Positions 308-10,004 of a stretch of 64,000 nucleotides of DNA are shown here, in pieces. How positions within the stretch are numbered: position 1 is the stretch's first letter; each line of letters starts with the position of its first letter. The stretch is from an uncultured Flavobacteriales bacterium (GTDB lineage Bacteria > Bacteroidota > Bacteroidia > Flavobacteriales_E > Vicingaceae), in contig CAJXMH010000009.1 of the NCBI GenBank assembly GCA_913056345.1, positions 1 through 64,000 of the forward strand, written 5' to 3'. Position numbers and translations under genes: made by a program. The notes under the pieces were generated by a model. It worked only from the letters and a program-made list of their open reading frames with translations. It made no database searches and was not told the origin of the DNA.

Positions 308-1459
308 TTAATCTACTTCAACCACAACCTGCATGGTATCATTTTCTTCTTTCACTAAGGAATCATTTTCTTCAGCAGGAATTTCTTCAACATAGATTTC
401 TCCTTGGGGATCCTTACCATTTGGCGGGTTAGTTCCTTTTAGGGTTTTGATGTAAGATGCAACTTGCTGCATCTGTTTTGGGCTGAATTGGCTCTGCCAT
501 GCAATCATCCCTTTTTCAGGAACACCGTACTTAATGGTTTTGAAGATCTTGTTGATACTTCCGCCATGAATCCAATAATCATCGGTTAAGTTAGGCCCTG
601 CACCACCTTCACCAAGTTGACCATGGCAGGTAGCACAATTTCCTTTGTAGATAGCCGCACCTTTTTCAATAGTAGGGGCATCAACCAAGTATACTACATT
701 TTCTTCTGTAATACTTTCAGTTGCATTGGCCATCATTACTGCTTTTTCTGCAACAGCAGCTTCCATTTCTGCCATGTATTCTTCGTGGCTTAATTTACCA
801 TCGCCCGTTACGTGAAACCTTACAATGTAAACTACTGCGAAAATGATGGTAGCGTAGAACATGTAGACCCACCATGGAGGTAAGTTATTGTCAAGCTCTT
901 TAATCCCATCATAGTTGTGGTCTAGCATCACAGATTCCTCTTCCTCAAGTGGAACATTATCGGTTAAGCTCAAGCTTTCGAAGATGTCAGCAGACTTGGT
1001 TTCTGCAACTTCTTCCACCGCTTCTTCTTCGACCTGTTGCAGGCTAATTAAGGTTTGTAAGGCTCTGAATAGTACAAAAATTACCACTGCAAGCACAATG
1101 ATCAGCGAGGATAAAATCCAAAAAAGGGTATTGTCTAGTATAAAAGGAGCACTTGCGGCAGTTTCATTTGCCGCATATGCCGACGAGCTTAATCCTAGCA
1201 AGGCTATTACTGCCGTAGCTTTTGCTTTACTTGGGTTGTTATTAATGCTTTCTTCTAATTTTCCGCTCTTGCTAATGCTCTTTATGGCATTTGATAAGGC
1301 TTGAATAATCATAAGTAAAAGCGCTACAAAACTCAGCATTAGCACAAGCAAGGTTAGGTCTGAAATGCCGCTTGCCTTTGCAATACTGTTGTTAGCCATG
1401 CTTGCTAATGGCGCAAGTAGGCCTAGCAATAAACTGAAGGTTAATTTTTTATTTTTCAT
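308..1459 (-). CDS. ccoP: cbb3-type cytochrome c oxidase subunit III (CcoP), single heme c
   Basis: Membrane-anchored cytochrome c subunit that passes electrons to the CcoNO core. The 383-residue product has a hydrophobic N-terminal region (about 33-53, a second weak stretch at 80-97, and 112-134), an acidic linker, the FixP N-terminal-type motif PPWWVYMFYATI (about 194-205), and one cytochrome c domain with CATCH at 275-279 and a probable axial Met at 318 (KGMIAW). Many proteobacterial CcoP proteins carry two c hemes; only one CxxCH is present here. The C-terminus is a long acidic tail. It lies 11 bases after ccoQ and upstream of ccoG in the cco operon. Confidence 0.93.
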   Translation of the reverse strand: MKNKKLTFSLLLGLLAPLASMANNSIAKASGISDLTLLVLMLSFVALLLMIIQALSNAIKSISKSGKLEESINNNPSKAKATAVIALLGLSSSAYAANETAASAPFILDNTLFWILSSLIIVLAVVIFVLFRALQTLISLQQVEEEAVEEVAETKSADIFESLSLTDNVPLEEEESVMLDHNYDGIKELDNNLPPWWVYMFYATIIFAVVYIVRFHVTGDGKLSHEEYMAEMEAAVAEKAVMMANATESITEENVVYLVDAPTIEKGAAIYKGNCATCHGQLGEGGAGPNLTDDYWIHGGSINKIFKTIKYGVPEKGMIAWQSQFSPKQMQQVASYIKTLKGTNPPNGKDPQGEIYVEEIPAEENDSLVKEENDTMQVVVEVD

Positions 1460-1470
1460 AGCAGTAGTTT

Positions 1471-1668
1471 CTATTGGTTAACAGGATTCTGATTGTCTTC
1501 CTCATCTTGGAACGGTAGGTTAGCTAAGGTTTTTACCTCAGCTTTTTTCATTCTGATTACCCAAGCGAATAATCCTATGAAGAAGATGAAAAAGATCAAG
1601 AAAGAGATCAAAGGAAAGATCTCGATCCCTCCAATGGTTGCCATATTGTGTTTGATGAATTTTAACAT
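1471..1668 (-). CDS. ccoQ: CcoQ-like small membrane subunit of cbb3 oxidase
   Basis: A 65-residue protein with one central membrane span (about 15-38, ISFLIFFIFFIGLFAWVI) followed by a charged tail. The size, topology and position between ccoNO and ccoP are those of CcoQ, a small subunit that stabilises the cbb3 complex. It starts 6 bases after the ccoNO stop, so it is almost certainly co-transcribed and perhaps translationally coupled. Sequence conservation in CcoQ is low, so the name rests mainly on position and topology. Confidence 0.8.
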   Translation of the reverse strand: MLKFIKHNMATIGGIEIFPLISFLIFFIFFIGLFAWVIRMKKAEVKTLANLPFQDEEDNQNPVNQ

Positions 1669-1674
1669 GTCTAT

Positions 1675-3825
1675 TTATTTTTCTGCGGTTTTGTTACCTT
1701 TTTCAATATCAACTCCTAGTCGCTGTAAATAAGCAATCAGGGCTACAATTTCACGATCAGGAGCTACTTCAAAGCCCTCTTCCTCAAGCGTACTTCTCAT
1801 ATCTTCCACTATTTCATTAGCTTGAACTTCAAGGTCTTGGTTTGCTCTTTCAGGATAGTCTTCTTCATAAGGGACACCTAAAGTGATCATAGCTCGAATC
1901 TTAGCGGCGGTAAGCGTAGTATCATAGCTTTTCTCTAGCAACCAAGGATACCTTGGCATAATAGAACCGGGTGACACACTGCGAGGATCATACATGTGTT
2001 TGAAGTGCCATGAATTTGGTTTTCTCAGCTTAGCTGTGCCTTCTCTTGCCAAATCTGGACCAGTTCTTTTAGAACCCCATAAGAATGGATGATCGTATAC
2101 GAACTCACCAGCTTTTGAGTATTCACCGTAGCGTTCCGTTTCAGATCTAAAAGGTCTTACCATTTGACTGTGACAGTTGTTACAACCTTCACTTATGTAG
2201 ATATCTCTACCAATTAACTCTAATGGGGTGTAGGGTTTTACGCTGGCAATAGTTGGAACATTCGACTTTACAAGGAAAGTTGGAACCATTTCAATCACTC
2301 CCCCAATCAAGATCACAACCAAAGAGCCAATTAATAATGGCGTTGGCTTTCTTTCGATCCAACGATGCCAATGTTCATCTTTATAACCTGCTGCAAGCTT
2401 TTTAAGTGGTGCTGCTTCTGCTTCTTCTTCGTCTTGGAACTCTCCAGATCTAGCAGTTTGAACTAAGTTTACAACCATAGCGATAACCCCAATGAAGTAG
2501 AATGTTCCTCCAATTGCTCTGTAAGCATACATGGGAATAATGTTGGTCACTGTTTCTAGGAAGTTAGGATACTTTAAAAATCCTTCGTTTGTAAAATCAT
2601 TCCACATTTGGCTTTGGGTAAAGCCTGCCCAGTAAAGTGGGATGGCATAGAAAAGAATACCAAGTGTCCCAATCCAGAAGTGAAAATTAGCGAGCTTTTC
2701 TGACCAAAGCTTTGTTCTGAAAAGCTTAGGAAATAGGAAGTAAAGCATACCAAAGGTTAAGAAACCATTCCAGCCTAAAGCTCCAACATGAACGTGTGCT
2801 ATGATCCAATCAGTAAAGTGAGCAATGGCATTCACATTTTTCAAGGAGAGCATTGGACCTTCAAAGGTTGACATACCATAAGCCGTGATGGCAACCACCA
2901 TGAACTTCAATACAGGATTGTCTCTTACTTTATCCCATGCACCTCTTAAAGTTAACAATCCGTTAATCATACCTCCCCAAGATGGAGCAATCAACATAAC
3001 AGAAAAGACTGTTCCTAATGATTGAGCCCAATCAGGCAATGCAGTGTAAAGCAAGTGGTGTGGACCTGCCCAAATGTAAAGGAAGATCAATGCCCAGAAA
3101 TGAATGATCGAAAGCCGGTAAGAGAATACAGGTCTATTTGCCGCCTTCGGTACAAAGTAGTACATCAAACCTAGGTAGGGAGTTGTAAGGAAAAAGGCTA
3201 CTGCATTGTGTCCGTACCACCATTGTACTAGCGCATCTTGCACACCTGCATACCAAGAATAACTTTTCATGAAAGTAACCGGAAGCTCAAAAGAATTTAC
3301 AATGTGAAGAACCGCTACAGTTACAAATGTTGCGATGTAGAACCAAATGGCTACGTACAAGTGTCTCTCTCTTCTTTTGATGATCGTGGCAAACATGTTC
3401 CAGCCAAAAACCACCCAAATAAGGGCAATGGCAATATCAATTGGCCACTCTAACTCAGCGTACTCTTTAGAGGTTGTGTAACCTAGTGGAAGTGTAATTA
3501 CAGCCGAAACAATAATTAGCTGCCAACCCCAAAAGTTGATTTTACTCAACAAGTCGCTATACATTCTTGCCTTGAGCAATCGTTGTAAGGAGTAATAAAC
3601 ACCCGCAAAGATGCCGTTTCCTACAAAAGCAAAAATCACCGCATTGGTGTGAAGGGGTCTTATCCTACCAAATGTGGTGTATTCTAAATTAAAGCTAAGG
3701 GCGGGAAAAATAAACTGAAAGGCCACTAACAGCCCAACTAGCATACCGATTACACCCCAAAAGATCGTCGCATAAGAAAATAGCTTAACGATCTTATTGT
3801 CATACTTGAACTTTTCTACTTGCAT
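1675..3825 (-). CDS. ccoNO: Fused cbb3 oxidase subunits I and II (CcoN-CcoO)
   Basis: Catalytic core of the high-affinity terminal oxidase. Residues 1 to about 460 are the polytopic CcoN heme-copper subunit, with histidine-rich helices such as WYGHNAVAFFLT, the AGPHHLLYTALPDW segment and IAHVHVGALGWNG. Residues from about 490 on are CcoO: a membrane anchor (TPLLIGSLVVILIGGVIEM) and a monoheme cytochrome c domain with CNNCH at 548-552 followed by SQMVRP. The two subunits are separate genes in Proteobacteria; the in-frame fusion is common in Bacteroidota. It is the second gene of the ccoS-NO-Q-P-G operon, 15 bases after ccoS. Confidence 0.96.
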   Translation of the reverse strand: MQVEKFKYDNKIVKLFSYATIFWGVIGMLVGLLVAFQFIFPALSFNLEYTTFGRIRPLHTNAVIFAFVGNGIFAGVYYSLQRLLKARMYSDLLSKINFWGWQLIIVSAVITLPLGYTTSKEYAELEWPIDIAIALIWVVFGWNMFATIIKRRERHLYVAIWFYIATFVTVAVLHIVNSFELPVTFMKSYSWYAGVQDALVQWWYGHNAVAFFLTTPYLGLMYYFVPKAANRPVFSYRLSIIHFWALIFLYIWAGPHHLLYTALPDWAQSLGTVFSVMLIAPSWGGMINGLLTLRGAWDKVRDNPVLKFMVVAITAYGMSTFEGPMLSLKNVNAIAHFTDWIIAHVHVGALGWNGFLTFGMLYFLFPKLFRTKLWSEKLANFHFWIGTLGILFYAIPLYWAGFTQSQMWNDFTNEGFLKYPNFLETVTNIIPMYAYRAIGGTFYFIGVIAMVVNLVQTARSGEFQDEEEAEAAPLKKLAAGYKDEHWHRWIERKPTPLLIGSLVVILIGGVIEMVPTFLVKSNVPTIASVKPYTPLELIGRDIYISEGCNNCHSQMVRPFRSETERYGEYSKAGEFVYDHPFLWGSKRTGPDLAREGTAKLRKPNSWHFKHMYDPRSVSPGSIMPRYPWLLEKSYDTTLTAAKIRAMITLGVPYEEDYPERANQDLEVQANEIVEDMRSTLEEEGFEVAPDREIVALIAYLQRLGVDIEKGNKTAEK

Positions 3826-3840
3826 GATCTAAATAGTTAA

Positions 3841-4014
3841 TTAATTGGATTTTTCTTTATTAGATGTTTGTTGCTTATTCTCATCGAATAAAATTCTCAC
3901 TGAAGGGGTATAGTCATCTTCGTATTGACCGCTTCTTACTGACCATAAGAACGCCACTAAGAAAGCCACTGCTACTGCAAGGCTTATCACTATAAGGAGA
4001 ATAAGAACACTCAT
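3841..4014 (-). CDS. ccoS: CcoS, cbb3 oxidase maturation protein
   Basis: A 57-residue protein read directly from the sequence. One N-terminal membrane helix (MSVLILLIVISLAVAVAFL) is followed by FLWSVRSGQYEDD, the conserved CcoS signature in which an aromatic/acidic cluster follows the helix. CcoS is needed for assembly of cofactor-loaded cbb3 oxidase. It is the first gene of the cco operon. The ATG at 4014 lies about 10 bases below the inferred FNR-dependent start site, so the leader would be very short. Confidence 0.9.
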   Translation of the reverse strand: MSVLILLIVISLAVAVAFLVAFLWSVRSGQYEDDYTPSVRILFDENKQQTSNKEKSN

Positions 4015-4028
4015 AAAATTATTTTCAA

Positions 4029-4071
4029 CAAAGGTGGGACGCCAAAACAGGCTAAAAAATGATAATTATCA
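4029..4071 (-). promoter_or_regulatory. FNR-type promoter of the ccoS-NO-Q-P-G operon
   Basis: A perfect palindrome TGATAATTATCA (4060-4071) matches the core of the FNR/CRP-type box TGAT-N4-ATCA. On the minus strand a -7-like ACCTTTG ends at 4029, 36.5 bases from the box centre. With transcription starting about 5 bases further on, the box centre falls near -41.5, the class II activator position. The site lies 46 bases upstream of ccoS. The FNR-like gene at 7173-7880 is the obvious candidate regulator; the binding is inferred. Confidence 0.75.
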
Positions 4072-4086
4072 GTTTCTTAAAAAAAC

Positions 4087-4629
4087 TTAATAATTTGAAC
4101 AATCTTCGGTTTTTGAATGCAAAGTTGGCCTCTCTTTTGATAGGGTAAAATCCTTTTGGTTAAGCACTTCCCATTCTGCAATAGCCTCAATATGAAGATG
4201 AAGGCTTATGCTTTTTTCGTTCAGTTTATTGGTGATCTGGTGAAAGCCCATATCATCATTCAAATAAGCTGATTCACCTTTTTTAAGCAAGATCGTGTCT
4301 TTAACTTCAATACTTTCAGCATCAAAATCTACCTCAAAGGTTTCGATAAGAATTTCGCCTTCTAAAACCTTAACCCAACTCTCCTGATTGCTGTAGCTAT
4401 GGATGGCTGAGTGCTGCTTTTCTTGCCAGCCCATTAAAAGTAATTCATAATCATCGCATGAGCTAAGGCAATTTCTGCTGTAGTGTTGATCATTCCATTT
4501 TATGAATTCTGTTAATTCAGAAATGGGAATATCTACAGCCTTAAACAATTCTATGTATCCTCCATAGCCTGGTCCAAGGTTCAAATTCTTTGTTAATTGC
4601 TCAATGCTTTCAATTTTTGCAAGTGGCAT
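4087..4629 (-). CDS. Cysteine dioxygenase-like cupin with a changed metal ligand
   Basis: A 180-residue cupin that resembles bacterial thiol/cysteine dioxygenases: YSRNC (50-54), GWQEKQHSAIH (67-77), WVKVLEGEI (85-93), GESAYLNDDMGFHQI (118-132) and SLHLH near the end. Cysteine dioxygenases oxidise cysteine to cysteine sulfinate with a three-histidine iron site. Here His77 and His130 are present, but the usual second histidine of the HxH pair appears as Tyr79 (IHSYS). The gene is single, between ccoI and ccoS, with its own FNR-type promoter. The altered ligand could mean a changed metal site, a changed substrate or loss of activity. The family is fairly sure; the activity is not. Confidence 0.68.
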   Translation of the reverse strand: MPLAKIESIEQLTKNLNLGPGYGGYIELFKAVDIPISELTEFIKWNDQHYSRNCLSSCDDYELLLMGWQEKQHSAIHSYSNQESWVKVLEGEILIETFEVDFDAESIEVKDTILLKKGESAYLNDDMGFHQITNKLNEKSISLHLHIEAIAEWEVLNQKDFTLSKERPTLHSKTEDCSNY

Positions 4630-4653
4630 TTTAATTCATTTAAAGTTCAAGAC

Positions 4654-4696
4654 CAAAGTTAGGGCAGTACGTTACCCTTTAAAATGATAATTATCA
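4654..4696 (-). promoter_or_regulatory. FNR-type promoter of the cysteine dioxygenase-like gene
   Basis: A second perfect TGATAATTATCA palindrome (4685-4696) overlaps the ccoI stop codon. On the minus strand a perfect TAACTTTG -7 element (4661 down to 4654) ends exactly 36.5 bases from the box centre, as in the cco operon promoter. The inferred start site is about 4649, giving a leader of about 20 bases. The identical core sequence and spacing make chance unlikely. Confidence 0.75.
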
Positions 4697-7108
4697 GCTT
4701 TGCAAAGCAAAATGAGTTTGCTTGCTGATCCAAACAGCCAGACTTACAAACGCGACTACCGTAATTGAGCTTATGGGCATAAGAATTGCCGCAAAAACAG
4801 GACTAAGTAAACCCTGTACCGCAAAGGCAAGACCTATTGCATTGTATAAAAAGGAAATGATGAAGCTTACGATTACGATCTTTTTACAATTTCTGCTAAA
4901 GCGGAGAATTGCATCGACTAGGTCAAACCGTTCAGCCGCCAAAATCACATCACAAGCGGGTGAGAAGGCATTAACATTTTCAGCAATTGAAACTCCTACA
5001 TCACTCTGTAGCAATGCTCCAGCATCATTCAACCCATCGCCTACCATCATGCAGTGTTGCTTTTTCTCTTGTAATTCCTTGATATAGTTTAGCTTATCTT
5101 CAGGGCTTTGTTCAAATAGTAAACTTGCTTGAGAAGGGAAGTATTGAAGTAACTTCTTTTCCTGACCGCTGTGATCTCCCGAGATCATAGAAAGCTTAAC
5201 CGATTTCTTAAGCTTATTGAGTAGTGTTTTTAAACCCTTTCGGTATTGGTTAGAGACACCAAAGTAGCCTTTTACATCCCCTGCTATTTCAATAAAAACA
5301 GTGCTTGAAAGTTGCTCAAGTTGAGCTTGGCCCAACCATGAGGCAGAACCTATTCGGATAGAGCCCAAACTGCTTTCTGCTGCAAGTCCTTTTCCAGCCA
5401 TTTCTTGAAAGTTTTTTACACCATTAACTTCAGCTGTTGGTAAATAATCGGAAATAATTCGGCTAAGTGGATGATTACTTTGGCTCAATATAGCTTGTAC
5501 AAGCCTTTCCTCAGCTTGGTTTAGTTTTTTCCCAACGTATGTCACCTTTCTGTTTTGACCATAAGTTAGTGTTCCGGTCTTATCAAAAATAACATGCTCA
5601 ACCTCTGCCAGCTGTTCCATTACAGTTGCTTCTCTTAAGTAACAACTTAAGCGGCCTAAATAGCGCATTGCATGACCAAAAGTAAAGGGTGCAGCAAGGG
5701 CTAAAGCACAAGGGCAAGCCACAATTAAAACAGCAGTAGCAACTTCAACGGCTGAGCTAATTCCAAACTGTAAATGATATAAAGCCGCCAGTAAGGCTAT
5801 TAGCAAAATAATAGGAGTAAACCATTGAGAGATTCGATCAGTAAGGCCTGAAAAACTCACTTGCGTTGTTTCACTTTCATCTCTTCGCGCATATTCGCTC
5901 CATAGTCTTGTCAGTTTACTCTGAGCTAAAGGTCTTATTACTTCTAGGGTAATGGCTTCTCCAATTTGTCTACCTCCGGCAAAAAGTTTACTACCGATCT
6001 CCCTTTCTATAGGCTCTGATTCTCCGGTAGCAAAACTGTTGTCAATATTGGCCTTCCCTTCAATAAGATAGCCATCCACAGGAATTAATTCACCGTTGCG
6101 TATTACTATTTTATCCCCTTTTTGAATGTCTTGCACGGGAATACTCTCTTCTTCTCCTTTTTGCAATCTGTTGATCGAAATAGGGAAGTAGGAACGGTAA
6201 TCGCGTTCAAATGAAAGTTGATGGTAAATTTTTTCTTGAAATATTCTGCCAATTAATAAGAAAAATAACAAACCGCAGAGGGAGTCAAAATAACCAGCCC
6301 CGGTTTGTGCTGCAACTTCGTAAAAGCTTCTCAAGTACAAAACGAGAACCCCAATAGCGATGGGTACGTCAATGTTCAGCCGCTTGTTTTTAAGGCTTGT
6401 CCAAGCAGATTTAAAATAGTCTTGACCACTGTAAAAGGCTACAGGGGTTGCTATTACAAGGTTTAGCCAGCTAAACCATTGGCTAAACTCTTTTAAGCTG
6501 CGTTCATCAAAACCAAAATACTCGGGCAGGCTGAGCAACATAATGTTACCAAAGGCAAAACCAGCTACACCAACCTGGTAAATCAGGCGTTTGCTGATGG
6601 GTTTTTTTCGTTCAGACTTGAGTTGATCTAGCGTAATACTAGGCTCATAACCCAGGCTTGCCAACAATTCAACCAATTGCCTTAATGAAAGCTGTTGATG
6701 CTCAAAGGTGAGGTAGATTTCCTTTTTTAAGAAGTTTACCCTACTGGTTTGAACTCCTTGATGCAGTTTATAGAGGTTTTCTAGCAACCAAAGGCATGAG
6801 CTACAGTGAATTTGGGGCAAGTAAAACTGGACTTTACTTATTTGTTCATCTTGATAGTCAAGCAGCTCATCTTGAATATTTTGGTGTTCCAAGTAGTCAA
6901 ACTTAGACTGACTTCTAGACTTTGGACTGATTCCTGGCTGTGCCTCAAGGTCGTAATAATTACAAAGGTCATTTTCTTGAAGAATCTCATAAACCGTCTT
7001 ACATCCTTGACAGCAGAAATGCTTGTCCTCCAATAAGATATCGTCGCTTAGGCAATCGTCTCCACAATGGTAGCAAGAAGTAGGGTTATTTGAATCTTTT
7101 AATGCCAT
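4694..7108 (-). CDS. ccoI: CcoI-type copper-transporting P1B ATPase
   Basis: Copper-exporting P-type ATPase that supplies copper for cbb3 oxidase. The product of 804 residues has an N-terminal cysteine-rich metal-binding domain (CYHCGDDC, then CCQGCKTVYE), a heavy-metal-associated domain with CSSC, a block of membrane helices, the CPC metal site at 465-467, the phosphorylation motif DKTGT at 509-513, and GDGLND near the C-terminus. A longer reading frame opens at 7246, but the extra 46 residues overlap the regulatory box and the divergent gene; the ATG at 7108 (MALKDSNN) gives the normal CcoI N-terminus. It is separated from the main cco operon by the cupin gene and has its own promoter. Confidence 0.92.
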   Translation of the reverse strand: MALKDSNNPTSCYHCGDDCLSDDILLEDKHFCCQGCKTVYEILQENDLCNYYDLEAQPGISPKSRSQSKFDYLEHQNIQDELLDYQDEQISKVQFYLPQIHCSSCLWLLENLYKLHQGVQTSRVNFLKKEIYLTFEHQQLSLRQLVELLASLGYEPSITLDQLKSERKKPISKRLIYQVGVAGFAFGNIMLLSLPEYFGFDERSLKEFSQWFSWLNLVIATPVAFYSGQDYFKSAWTSLKNKRLNIDVPIAIGVLVLYLRSFYEVAAQTGAGYFDSLCGLLFFLLIGRIFQEKIYHQLSFERDYRSYFPISINRLQKGEEESIPVQDIQKGDKIVIRNGELIPVDGYLIEGKANIDNSFATGESEPIEREIGSKLFAGGRQIGEAITLEVIRPLAQSKLTRLWSEYARRDESETTQVSFSGLTDRISQWFTPIILLIALLAALYHLQFGISSAVEVATAVLIVACPCALALAAPFTFGHAMRYLGRLSCYLREATVMEQLAEVEHVIFDKTGTLTYGQNRKVTYVGKKLNQAEERLVQAILSQSNHPLSRIISDYLPTAEVNGVKNFQEMAGKGLAAESSLGSIRIGSASWLGQAQLEQLSSTVFIEIAGDVKGYFGVSNQYRKGLKTLLNKLKKSVKLSMISGDHSGQEKKLLQYFPSQASLLFEQSPEDKLNYIKELQEKKQHCMMVGDGLNDAGALLQSDVGVSIAENVNAFSPACDVILAAERFDLVDAILRFSRNCKKIVIVSFIISFLYNAIGLAFAVQGLLSPVFAAILMPISSITVVAFVSLAVWISKQTHFALQS

Positions 7109-7120
7109 TAAAAAAGGGAA

Positions 7121-7163
7121 CAAAGATGCTTTTAAAATTATGCTTAAAGTATGATATTTGTCA
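7121..7163 (-). promoter_or_regulatory. FNR-type promoter of ccoI, overlapping the start of the FNR-like gene
   Basis: TGATATTTGTCA (7152-7163) differs at one position from the TGAT-N4-ATCA consensus. On the minus strand CATCTTTG ends at 7121, exactly 36.5 bases from the box centre, repeating the geometry of the two other promoters. The box also lies 10 bases before the ATG of the divergent regulator gene and contains a TTTG on the plus strand, so it could cover that gene's own -7 region. Activation of ccoI together with self-repression of the regulator is a plausible inference. Confidence 0.65.
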
Positions 7164-7172
7164 TAGATCCTA

Positions 7173-7880
7173 ATGAGCGAAAAAACGAATACTCCCAAAT
7201 GTGCCACTTGCGGCTCTCGCAACAAGTCGGTTTTTTGCAGCCTCAATACAGAACAGCTTACACAGATTGATACAGATAAAAGTTGCGAGTTTTATCAAAA
7301 AGGTGAGGTGATCTTCAAAGAAGGCGTGATGGCACGTGGTATATTCTGTGTCAATAACGGAAAAATCAAATTGAGTAGGATGGGGCAAAGTGGAAAAGAG
7401 CAAATTGTTCGTTTTGCCACCGGAGGCGACATTATTGGTTATAATTCTATGCTTAGTAAAAAACCACTGAGTGCTACAGCTACAGCTTTAGATAAATCTG
7501 CTGTCTGCTTTATTCCCGCCAAGAATTTTTTCCAAATGATTCGAGATGAACCTAATTTTAGCCTGAAAATTTTAGAGCTTACCGCTAAAAATTGGGAGAA
7601 TGCTTCACGTTTGATCACGGACATGGCGCAAAAAACCACCAAGCAACGCTTAGCTGAAATGCTTTTATGGTTAAAAGAGACTTTTGGCTTGGATGAAGAT
7701 AATTGCATTGATGTGCAGCTTAGCCGAGAAGAAATTGCGAACATGGTTGGAACAGCAACGGAAGCTGTAATTCGCCTTCTTGGAGATTTGAAAAAGCAAA
7801 AACTAATTGCTTTAGAAGGTAAAAAAATTAAACTGCTAGATATCCACGGTTTGGTAGTTTTAGCCGATTTAGTAGATTAG
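7173..7880 (+). CDS. FNR/CRP-family oxygen-responsive transcription regulator
   Basis: A 235-residue Crp/Fnr regulator. An N-terminal cysteine cluster (Cys10, Cys13, Cys22; further cysteines at 38, 59 and 110) precedes the cyclic-nucleotide-type beta-barrel (YQKGEVIFKEG, then FATGGDIIGYNSML), a dimer helix and a C-terminal HTH with LSREEIANMVGTATEAVIRLL, the FNR-type recognition helix. The cysteines suggest an oxygen-sensitive iron-sulfur cluster as in FNR, although spacing differs from the Escherichia coli protein. It is divergent from ccoI and shares the 7152-7163 box. It is the likely regulator of all three FNR-type promoters here. Whether it binds a cluster is inferred. Confidence 0.87.
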   Translation: MSEKTNTPKCATCGSRNKSVFCSLNTEQLTQIDTDKSCEFYQKGEVIFKEGVMARGIFCVNNGKIKLSRMGQSGKEQIVRFATGGDIIGYNSMLSKKPLSATATALDKSAVCFIPAKNFFQMIRDEPNFSLKILELTAKNWENASRLITDMAQKTTKQRLAEMLLWLKETFGLDEDNCIDVQLSREEIANMVGTATEAVIRLLGDLKKQKLIALEGKKIKLLDIHGLVVLADLVD

Positions 7881-7881
7881 T

Positions 7882-8547
7882 TTAAAGTACTAAGGCGAAA
7901 TAAGAAAAAAACAAGATTTGCGAAAGCAGGTAATTGAGTGAGAAGCTGTAATTGAGTCTCTTGTTGGTTGCTTGAATGATCAATTGCATTACAACTGCTA
8001 CTATTCCCCATGCTAGGTAATTATTCCAAGGGGCAGCTGAGCTAAACGTCCAAAAGTCAAACTTAGGCGCTACAACCTCCATTGGGAAATCGAATATAAC
8101 CAAGATTGAAGCTGCTAGCATAGCTTTCAGCAATGCATTCAGTTTGATTCTTTCTACCAAACTGTGTGCGGCCCAAGAAAGCATTAACCAATTAACGCCT
8201 ATCAGATAGGGTACTCCATCTAATTTAAAACCAAGGTTCTCTCCATAGGAATATTCACCAAACGGAAAGCCAGTATGAATGCCAATCCATTCAATTCCTA
8301 CACCAATTGAGAAAACTGCCACTGCGGCAAGCCATGTTTTCAGTGATTTAAATTGGGCCACCCAAAAGAATAAGGCAGTTTGAACCATCAAGTTAAGAGG
8401 CGTTTTAGGAACAAAAAACGATTCAAAACCAAAGCTTATTCCAATCATGGCCGAACCCATAAAGAGCCATATAATGAAGATGGCAATGCTTACCCTTTTC
8501 TCATAAGGGTTTTCAAGGGCATAAGTGATTTTTTTTGCTAGACTCAT
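7882..8547 (-). CDS. CruF-like carotenoid hydratase (membrane protein)
   Basis: A 221-residue polytopic protein with about seven hydrophobic segments and the family phrases IEWIGIHTGFPFGEYSYG, GVPYLIGVNWLML and DFPMEVVAPKFDFW. These belong to the carotenoid-biosynthesis family that includes CruF (1',2'-hydratase) and bisanhydrobacterioruberin hydratase. Its start overlaps the stop of the desaturase gene by 4 bases (ATGA), which implies translational coupling. Next to a CrtD-like desaturase it would produce a hydroxylated acyclic end group such as in flexixanthin, saproxanthin or myxol. The exact carotenoid cannot be told because the phytoene synthase and cyclase genes are not in view. Confidence 0.82.
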   Translation of the reverse strand: MSLAKKITYALENPYEKRVSIAIFIIWLFMGSAMIGISFGFESFFVPKTPLNLMVQTALFFWVAQFKSLKTWLAAVAVFSIGVGIEWIGIHTGFPFGEYSYGENLGFKLDGVPYLIGVNWLMLSWAAHSLVERIKLNALLKAMLAASILVIFDFPMEVVAPKFDFWTFSSAAPWNNYLAWGIVAVVMQLIIQATNKRLNYSFSLNYLLSQILFFSYFALVL

Positions 8548-10004
8548 GGGATTAAACTGCTTGCAATTTTAGCTGATTTTAGGCAAAGCGGAATTCCTCC
8601 TCCGGGGTGAACCGAGCCACCACAAAACCATAAATTTTCAAACTGCTGACTAAAATTAGCGTGTCTCAAAAATGCAGCATATTTGTTATTACTAGCAGTG
8701 CCGTATAGTGCTCCTAAGTGAGAAAAGGTCTTTTTTTCGATCAAAGTAGGGTCAAGGTGATCTTCAGTTTCAATCAAAGCTGTTAAGTCGATATTCAAAA
8801 TTCGATTCAGCTTTTTAATAATTACTTTTTTCGCTTGACTGACTCTTTCGCTCCAATCTTGGTCAGTAGTTGCGGGAACATTGATCATCACAAACCAATT
8901 TTCACCACCCTCTGGAGCGTCTTCCTTTCTTTCTTTAGAGGTGATGTTAATGTAAATCGTAGGGTCATCAGGCACCTTTTTTTGGTTGAAGATAGCTTCA
9001 AACTCCTTTTTGTAATCTTCAGAAAAGAAGATGTTATGAAGGTCTAATTCAGGGAACGTCTGCTTAATACCCCAGTAAAAAATGATGCCCGACGAGCTTC
9101 TTTCTTGTTTCAAGATTTTCTTTGGAGCTTTTGCCTTGGGTAGCAACTTTTTGTAGGCGTAAAAAACATCCATGTTGCACACAAAAACCGTAGCCTTGTA
9201 GACAACGCTTTTTGTTCTGATGCCTGATACTTTTTCATTCTCATGCAGAATTTCCTCCACCGCCTCATTGAACTTGAACTCTACCCCATGCCTTTTTGCC
9301 AGCTGGAATAAACTCTCGGCAATTGCTCTCATTCCTCCTTCAGGGAAATAAGTGCCTTGCTGCATTTCTAAGCTTGGGATCATGCTCATTATTCCCGGGG
9401 TTTCATAGGGAGAGGAACCATTGTAAGTGGCGTAGCGGTTGAAAAGCTGAATTAACTTTGGATTACTAAAATACTTTTCATTTACGCCATTGAGAGAGCT
9501 ATTTAAATCAAGCTTACCGACTTTGCTTATTGCCTTTAATGTATCAAGACTAAAGTAAGTAGAGGGTTTGTGTAGGCTTCTGTCTAGAAATAAGGGGGCT
9601 GTACTGTCGTATTTTAGTTTGCTGTTTTCAAGGTAGTTCTTGATGTTTTTTTCATCCTCTCCAAATGTTTGGGCCGCATCTTTAATAAAAGAATGAGGAT
9701 CCGCTTTCGCTTGAAAGCGGCATCCATCGGCCCAGAAGTAGTTGCAAATTGTCTTTTTAGAAAGGTAGTTGAACCTTTCTCTTGGCTCTTCACCCAATAA
9801 TCGAAAAAGTTCATCCACGAGCTGAGGCATGGTAAAAAGCGAGGGACCTGTGTCCCAGCGGTAACCTTGAGACTCTATCTCACCCATTTTCCCGCCTGCT
9901 TGTTCTGCCTGCTCAAATACGGTAACCTCGTACCCTTTTGCTTTGAGGCGAATGGAAGCTGCCAAGCCGGCAATACCTGCACCAATTACAATTGCTTGTT
10001 TCAC
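8544..10004 (-). CDS. CrtI/CrtD-type carotenoid desaturase
   Basis: A 486-residue FAD-dependent desaturase. The Rossmann motif GAGIAGLAASIRL is at residues 8-20, followed by the FAD-linked GGKMGEIESQGYRWDTGPSLF. Near the C-terminus LWFCGGSVHPGGGIPLCLKSAK is the conserved CrtI-family ending. The family includes phytoene desaturase (CrtI) and hydroxycarotenoid 3',4'-desaturase (CrtD). Adjacency to a CruF-like hydratase, and the absence of crtB beside it, favours CrtD, but sequence reading alone does not settle it. The start is GTG at 10004, one base overlapping the stop of the upstream small gene; it places the Rossmann fold right at the N-terminus as is usual. Confidence 0.85.
   Translation of the reverse strand: MKQAIVIGAGIAGLAASIRLKAKGYEVTVFEQAEQAGGKMGEIESQGYRWDTGPSLFTMPQLVDELFRLLGEEPRERFNYLSKKTICNYFWADGCRFQAKADPHSFIKDAAQTFGEDEKNIKNYLENSKLKYDSTAPLFLDRSLHKPSTYFSLDTLKAISKVGKLDLNSSLNGVNEKYFSNPKLIQLFNRYATYNGSSPYETPGIMSMIPSLEMQQGTYFPEGGMRAIAESLFQLAKRHGVEFKFNEAVEEILHENEKVSGIRTKSVVYKATVFVCNMDVFYAYKKLLPKAKAPKKILKQERSSSGIIFYWGIKQTFPELDLHNIFFSEDYKKEFEAIFNQKKVPDDPTIYINITSKERKEDAPEGGENWFVMINVPATTDQDWSERVSQAKKVIIKKLNRILNIDLTALIETEDHLDPTLIEKKTFSHLGALYGTASNNKYAAFLRHANFSQQFENLWFCGGSVHPGGGIPLCLKSAKIASSLIP

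Follow-up and report, generated by a model that had tools for sequence, protein, structure and literature searches.

Regulators and promoters of low-oxygen genes

ANR, FnrL and FixK of Proteobacteria are FNR-family regulators which control the cco operon and ccoI at low oxygen. The locus described here is like these systems in the proposed control of cco and ccoI. It differs in phylum and in promoter core, and its regulator scores well below the cut-offs of those families (FnrL 78 bits, FixK 73 bits).

The class II promoters of E. coli FNR (narG, dmsA and nirB type) share several features with this locus: a CRP-fold regulator, four cysteines, a TGAT-N4-ATCA core and a site centre at -41.5 (predicted here). 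Of 23 E. coli promoters that FNR activates and whose starts are known, 19 carry the site centred at -41.5 +/-4 (PMC3688515). However, the promoter core here is of the Bacteroidota -7 type and not TATAAT. The half-site also differs from that of E. coli FNR, being (A/C)TGAY without the outer T, as do the recognition helix (E-A-V-I-R) and the cysteine spacing (C-X2-C-X8-C).

The sigma-A promoters of Flavobacterium psychrophilum (SM1-3, TAnnTTTG; PMC9723704) share with this locus the type and position of the -7 element and the short leaders. In contrast to these promoters, a box occupies the -33 position here, and the -7 elements of ccoS and ccoI do not begin with T. Mapped start sites in F. psychrophilum place TAnnTTTG at -12 to -5; the median 5' UTR is 24 nt, and the cbb3 oxidase is induced by low oxygen (PMC9723704). 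Neither FNR nor CRP appears in the main text of that paper (PMC9723704), and no description of a Bacteroidota FNR regulon was found in a collection of open-access papers, outside which many subscription papers lie. Oxygen-responsive gene control in Bacteroidota is little described.

Genes of the cbb3 oxidase locus

The window (the whole 64 kb stretch of DNA that was analysed, from a Flavobacteriales bacterium) carries the following genes at the locus:

308..1459, minus strand: ccoP, cbb3 oxidase subunit III (profile matches)
1471..1668, minus strand: ccoQ-like small subunit (Pfam FixQ 24 bits, under the cut-off of 29)
1675..3825, minus strand: ccoNO fusion, cbb3 oxidase subunits I/II (NCBIfam NF011053, 1299.7 bits)
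3841..4014, minus strand: ccoS, which opens the operon and encodes the cbb3 maturation protein FixS (translation; Pfam PF03597, 75.7 bits)
4087..4629, minus strand: cysteine-dioxygenase-type cupin (Pfam CDO_I, 46.4 bits; PDB cysteine dioxygenase, E 2e-14)
4694..7108, minus strand: ccoI, copper-translocating P-type ATPase for cbb3 assembly (profile matches; synteny)
7173..7880, plus strand: FNR-type regulator (fnr), 235 aa, divergent from ccoI

Profile matches bear out the gene identities given in the preliminary description of this DNA, namely a cbb3 operon with ccoS first, a cysteine-dioxygenase-type cupin, ccoI and an FNR-type regulator. Just past fnr, the minus strand of 7882-10004 holds a gene resembling CruF-type carotenoid hydratases and another for a phytoene-desaturase-type FAD oxidoreductase.

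The cupin gene travels with the cco cluster. In the cupin and its orthologues in L082, L083, L084, L086 and L089, the first and third metal-ligand histidines are kept (6/6). The second is replaced by Tyr or Phe (IH[ST][YF]) in all six sequences, and the position of the active-site Tyr157 is His or Asn (LHL[HN]), also in all six. Judged by these residues, the cupin may be catalytically altered.

Boxes at a fixed distance from the -7 element

Three FNR-type boxes are found upstream of the cco operon, the cupin gene and ccoI. The boxes and the associated promoter elements are:

4060..4071, minus strand: FNR-type box TGATAATTATCA of the ccoS-ccoNO-ccoQ-ccoP operon; exact match; centre 4065.5, predicted at -41.5
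4029..4036, minus strand: -7 element CACCTTTG of the cco operon; predicted start site 4024
4685..4696, minus strand: FNR-type box TGATAATTATCA of the cupin gene; exact match
4654..4661, minus strand: -7 element TAACTTTG of the cupin gene; predicted start site 4649
7152..7163, minus strand: FNR-type box TGACAAATATCA of ccoI; exact match; its end is 9 nt before the start codon of the divergent fnr
7121..7128, minus strand: -7 element CATCTTTG of ccoI; predicted start site 7116
7153..7160, plus strand: possible -7 element GATATTTG of fnr, predicted from sequence, inside the ccoI box

Read on the forward strand, the ccoI box is TGATATTTGTCA. The cupin box begins with the stop codon of ccoI (TGA, 4694-4696).

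On the minus strand, TTTG ends at 4029, 4654 and 7121, and the distance to the box centre is 36.5 bases in each case. The preliminary description had reported three palindromes with a TTTG at one distance, and all of its positions are exact. When the 64 kb window is searched for TGAYNNNNRTCA-N27-TTTG with up to one mismatch allowed, only these three matches appear, all with zero mismatches. The count of the palindrome TGATNNNNATCA by itself is unremarkable (three found in the window, 1.5 expected); the unusual feature is the common spacing. With a TTTG frequency of 0.0089 per position in these loci, three TTTG at one pre-set gap have p ~7e-7; when the common gap may take any value from 20 to 35, p rises to 1e-5.

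The boxes contain the inner TGAY-N4-RTCA but do not match the canonical FNR site TTGATNNNNATCAA. The half-site is (A/C)TGAY; the outer base is mostly A or C upstream and T downstream, and the boxes lack the outer TT/AA seen in E. coli FNR sites. This refines the earlier reading of FNR-like promoters, as the box departs from the canonical one in its outer bases.

Promoter elements, start sites and leaders

The preliminary description needs correction in one respect: the pattern TAnnTTTG is complete only in the cupin promoter (TAACTTTG); the elements of ccoS (CACCTTTG) and ccoI (CATCTTTG) are not full matches. The departure lies in the first base and is conserved. It is C in 7/7 exact-gap ccoS promoters and never T among 11 ccoI promoters (window included); it is T in 5/5 cupin promoters. 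Conserved loss of the first T should reduce the basal activity of the ccoS and ccoI promoters, which would be expected to be silent in the absence of their activator. A T at the first base would turn the ccoS element into TACCTTTG, and basal activity would go up.

The box centres are placed at a predicted -41.5 because TAnnTTTG occupies -12 to -5 in F. psychrophilum (PMC9723704), and start sites at 4024, 4649 and 7116 are predicted by the same analogy. The activator site and the final G of the -7 element are 36.5 bases apart, which would put the site near -41.5 from the predicted start, as in class II promoters. Predicted leaders are 10 nt for ccoS, 20 nt for the cupin gene and 8 nt for ccoI, in line with the very short leaders (about 8-20 bases) first suggested; they are short yet not exceptional against the F. 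psychrophilum median.

The regulator protein

The product of fnr has a CRP fold, with a cNMP-binding-like domain (Pfam PF00027, 75.3 bits) and a Crp helix-turn-helix (PF13545, 63.3 bits). Its best NCBIfam match is Fnr, at 102.1 bits against a cut-off of 228; it is called FNR-type instead of Fnr because this cut-off is not reached. It has four putative cluster cysteines, three near the N-terminus (Cys 10, 13 and 22) and Cys 112 at the Cys122 equivalent. Cys 112 aligns with the cysteine of MVCEIP in the solved FNR, which is the fourth cluster cysteine. All four are invariant in 20/20 orthologues, as is Cys 59. Unlike that of E. coli FNR, the N-terminal cysteine spacing is C-X2-C-X8-C. The recognition helix is E-A-V-I-R or E-S-V-I-R in nearly all orthologues, while the E. 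coli type is E-T-I-S-R; this may explain the missing outer TT/AA of the boxes. DNA binding and oxygen sensing by the regulator are predictions.

A search of the genome recovered no more than three CRP-family proteins, of which the regulator at 7173-7880 alone closely matches an FNR query. In most of the fetched loci of the regulator and its relatives it lies beside ccoI, often with the cco operon next.

Conservation of the spacing

Conservation was followed in nine genomes, these being the window genome and its eight nearest relatives. TTTG lies exactly 27 bases on from 21/23 boxes before ccoI, the cupin gene and the cco operon; the genomes are related, and the counts are not independent. There are 72 boxes in all fetched loci, of which 22 have TTTG at gap 27 and no more than five at any other gap. 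Two more distant relatives (L092 and L095) have a ccoI box with one imperfect half-site at gap 27, and a cco operon box at gap 28. Scanning a collection for named relatives gave a single close match, Flavobacteriales bacterium UBA5081. In the relative L089, the box at 4922-4933 is followed on either strand by TTTG at gap 27, and may serve a divergent pair of class II promoters.

The genome-wide tests are pattern searches in which a gap of 23 to TAnnTTTG is the same spacing as a gap of 27 to TTTG. In the window genome, TGAYNNNNRTCA followed by TAnnTTTG at 8-38 bases occurs at ten sites, with three at gap 23 (the top value) and one at gap 24. The eight relatives with the regulator have 27 of 112 sites at gap 23, 11 at gap 24 and at most eight at any other gap. 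Pooling the regulator-carrying genomes gives 30/122 at gap 23 against one at gap 22. Lack of enrichment of this spacing elsewhere had been named in advance as the outcome that would count against the proposal; the search instead finds a peak at gap 23 in the window genome and its relatives. A scan of the window genome with two mismatches (81 sites, against 32 in the reversed control) was too noisy to use.

The peak extends across the class. A search of 149 Bacteroidia genomes gave 434 sites at gaps 22-24, whereas gaps 29-31 gave 46 and the reversed pattern 15, so that the spacing (+/-1) is enriched about nine-fold. In eleven genomes of the family that lack a close orthologue of this FNR, 13, 16 and 11 of 116 sites lie at gaps 22, 23 and 24. 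Genomes of this kind are not a clean negative control, as the peak persists, and for the same reason the geometry by itself does not identify the regulator. It is probably general to CRP/FNR activators in Bacteroidia. The largest number of sites at gaps 22-24 in any genome is 30, in G108 (Bacteroidia, genus g36). Several of these are near-identical, of the form TGATTAATATCATAGTTT...AAATAGTTTTG; an enlarged CRP/FNR regulon could account for the excess, as could a family of repeats.

Members of the regulon

Elsewhere in the window genome, sites of this kind stand before genes for an acetyl-CoA hydrolase/CoA-transferase and a CBS-domain protein, and trhO has one at gap 24. Four other sites were discounted, L006-L008 because they lie within coding sequence and L005 because it touches the end of another CRP-type gene. 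The view of one local regulon, put forward at the outset, is thus right about the shared architecture and too narrow in extent. The downstream functions recur in several genera. Acetyl-CoA hydrolase is downstream in L004, L137 and L143, and trhO at gap 24 in L081, L147 and L149. In relatives, the downstream gene can also be one for a cytochrome c lipoprotein (L131, L134, L139, L141, L144) or for UspA (L135, L142).

TrhO is the oxygen-dependent tRNA uridine-34 hydroxylase. The trhO site (G000:C9:103506-103549, equal to L081 3007-3050) has its box at a gap of 24 with the centre at -42.5, and the box is conserved in G004, G006, G007, G014 and G018; the identity of the downstream gene as trhO rests on G000, G004 and G014. 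Some genomes have a second TTTG ten bases upstream of that of the trhO -7 element.

Overlap of the ccoI box with fnr

Among the near relatives, as in the window, the end of the ccoI box is 4-19 nt short of the fnr start codon, and, except in L086, the candidate fnr -7 element GATATTTG is within the box. Several more distant relatives have a TGAATTTTATCA-like box directly 5' of a TATTTTTG. Binding at the ccoI box or at the TGAATTTTATCA-like box should impede transcription of fnr. Autoregulation is suggested, since the ccoI box covers the start region of fnr.

Interpretation and alternatives

We read the three boxes as parts of activator-dependent class II promoters of the adjacent oxygen-responsive FNR-type regulator, with a probability of about 0.85. 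Two results strengthen the class II geometry proposed in the preliminary description: relatives keep the exact gap, and the spacing shows a peak genome-wide. At low oxygen, the regulator would carry an iron-sulphur cluster on Cys 10, 13, 22 and 112 and would dimerise. The dimer would bind (A/C)TGAY-N4-RTCA(T), and at -41.5 it would contact RNA polymerase on a promoter with a Bacteroidota -7 element and no evident -33 element. The cbb3 oxidase operon, the copper loader ccoI and the cupin gene would be switched on. More distant targets would be the acetyl-CoA hydrolase/CoA-transferase, the CBS-domain protein and probably trhO. With the ccoI box over the start region of the divergent gene, fnr probably restricts its own expression.

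At the level of sequence, the boxes, their spacing and conservation, the membership of the regulon and the cysteines are evident. We infer that the FNR-type protein is the activator because of the sharp gap of 23, the synteny and the nature of the target genes. It is unlikely, but should be considered, that the boxes and their class II geometry are real and serve another CRP/FNR-family protein, or that several such proteins share the sites. The genome has two further CRP-family proteins, gaps 22-24 are enriched in genomes without a close FNR orthologue, and the class-wide peak spans many genomes. However, the regulator is divergent from ccoI with a shared box in all near relatives, and the targets are low-oxygen genes. 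The gap is also sharp at 23 where the regulator is present (30/122 against one at gap 22) but spread over 22-24 where it is not.

The boxes might instead be repressor sites, at which a protein blocks the genes in air and is released at low oxygen. The overlap with the start region of fnr is a typical repressor position. Yet a repressor has no need of an exact gap; the fixed -41.5 spacing and the degenerate -7 elements mark activation, and FNR proteins bind DNA without oxygen (PMC4505428), which makes repression highly improbable. Coincidence, with AT-rich palindromes lying at an equal distance from a common TTTG, would accord with the unremarkable number of TGATNNNNATCA in the window, but has a negligible chance of being correct. 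It is refuted by conservation, the exact gap being kept in 3/3 boxes here and in 21/23 across the window genome and its relatives, with peaks both genome- and class-wide.

Significance

We regard the class II regulon of FNR type, with its non-canonical core promoter, as real and conserved; its principle is known, and its setting and details are new. A broader proposal, to which we give roughly even odds, is that CRP/FNR activators across Bacteroidia share a TGAY-N4-RTCA-like site at -41.5 (+/-1) on the unusual -33/-7 sigma-A promoter, the class II geometry having outlived the change of core. Under this proposal, cbb3 promoters with a conserved crippled -7 element would be strictly activator-dependent, and one box would both activate ccoI and limit fnr. 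Because the distance from site to promoter is fixed, sequence can be used to predict CRP/FNR regulons throughout a large phylum. The fixed distance also indicates that the geometry of activator and polymerase known from E. coli apparently survived the change of core promoter.
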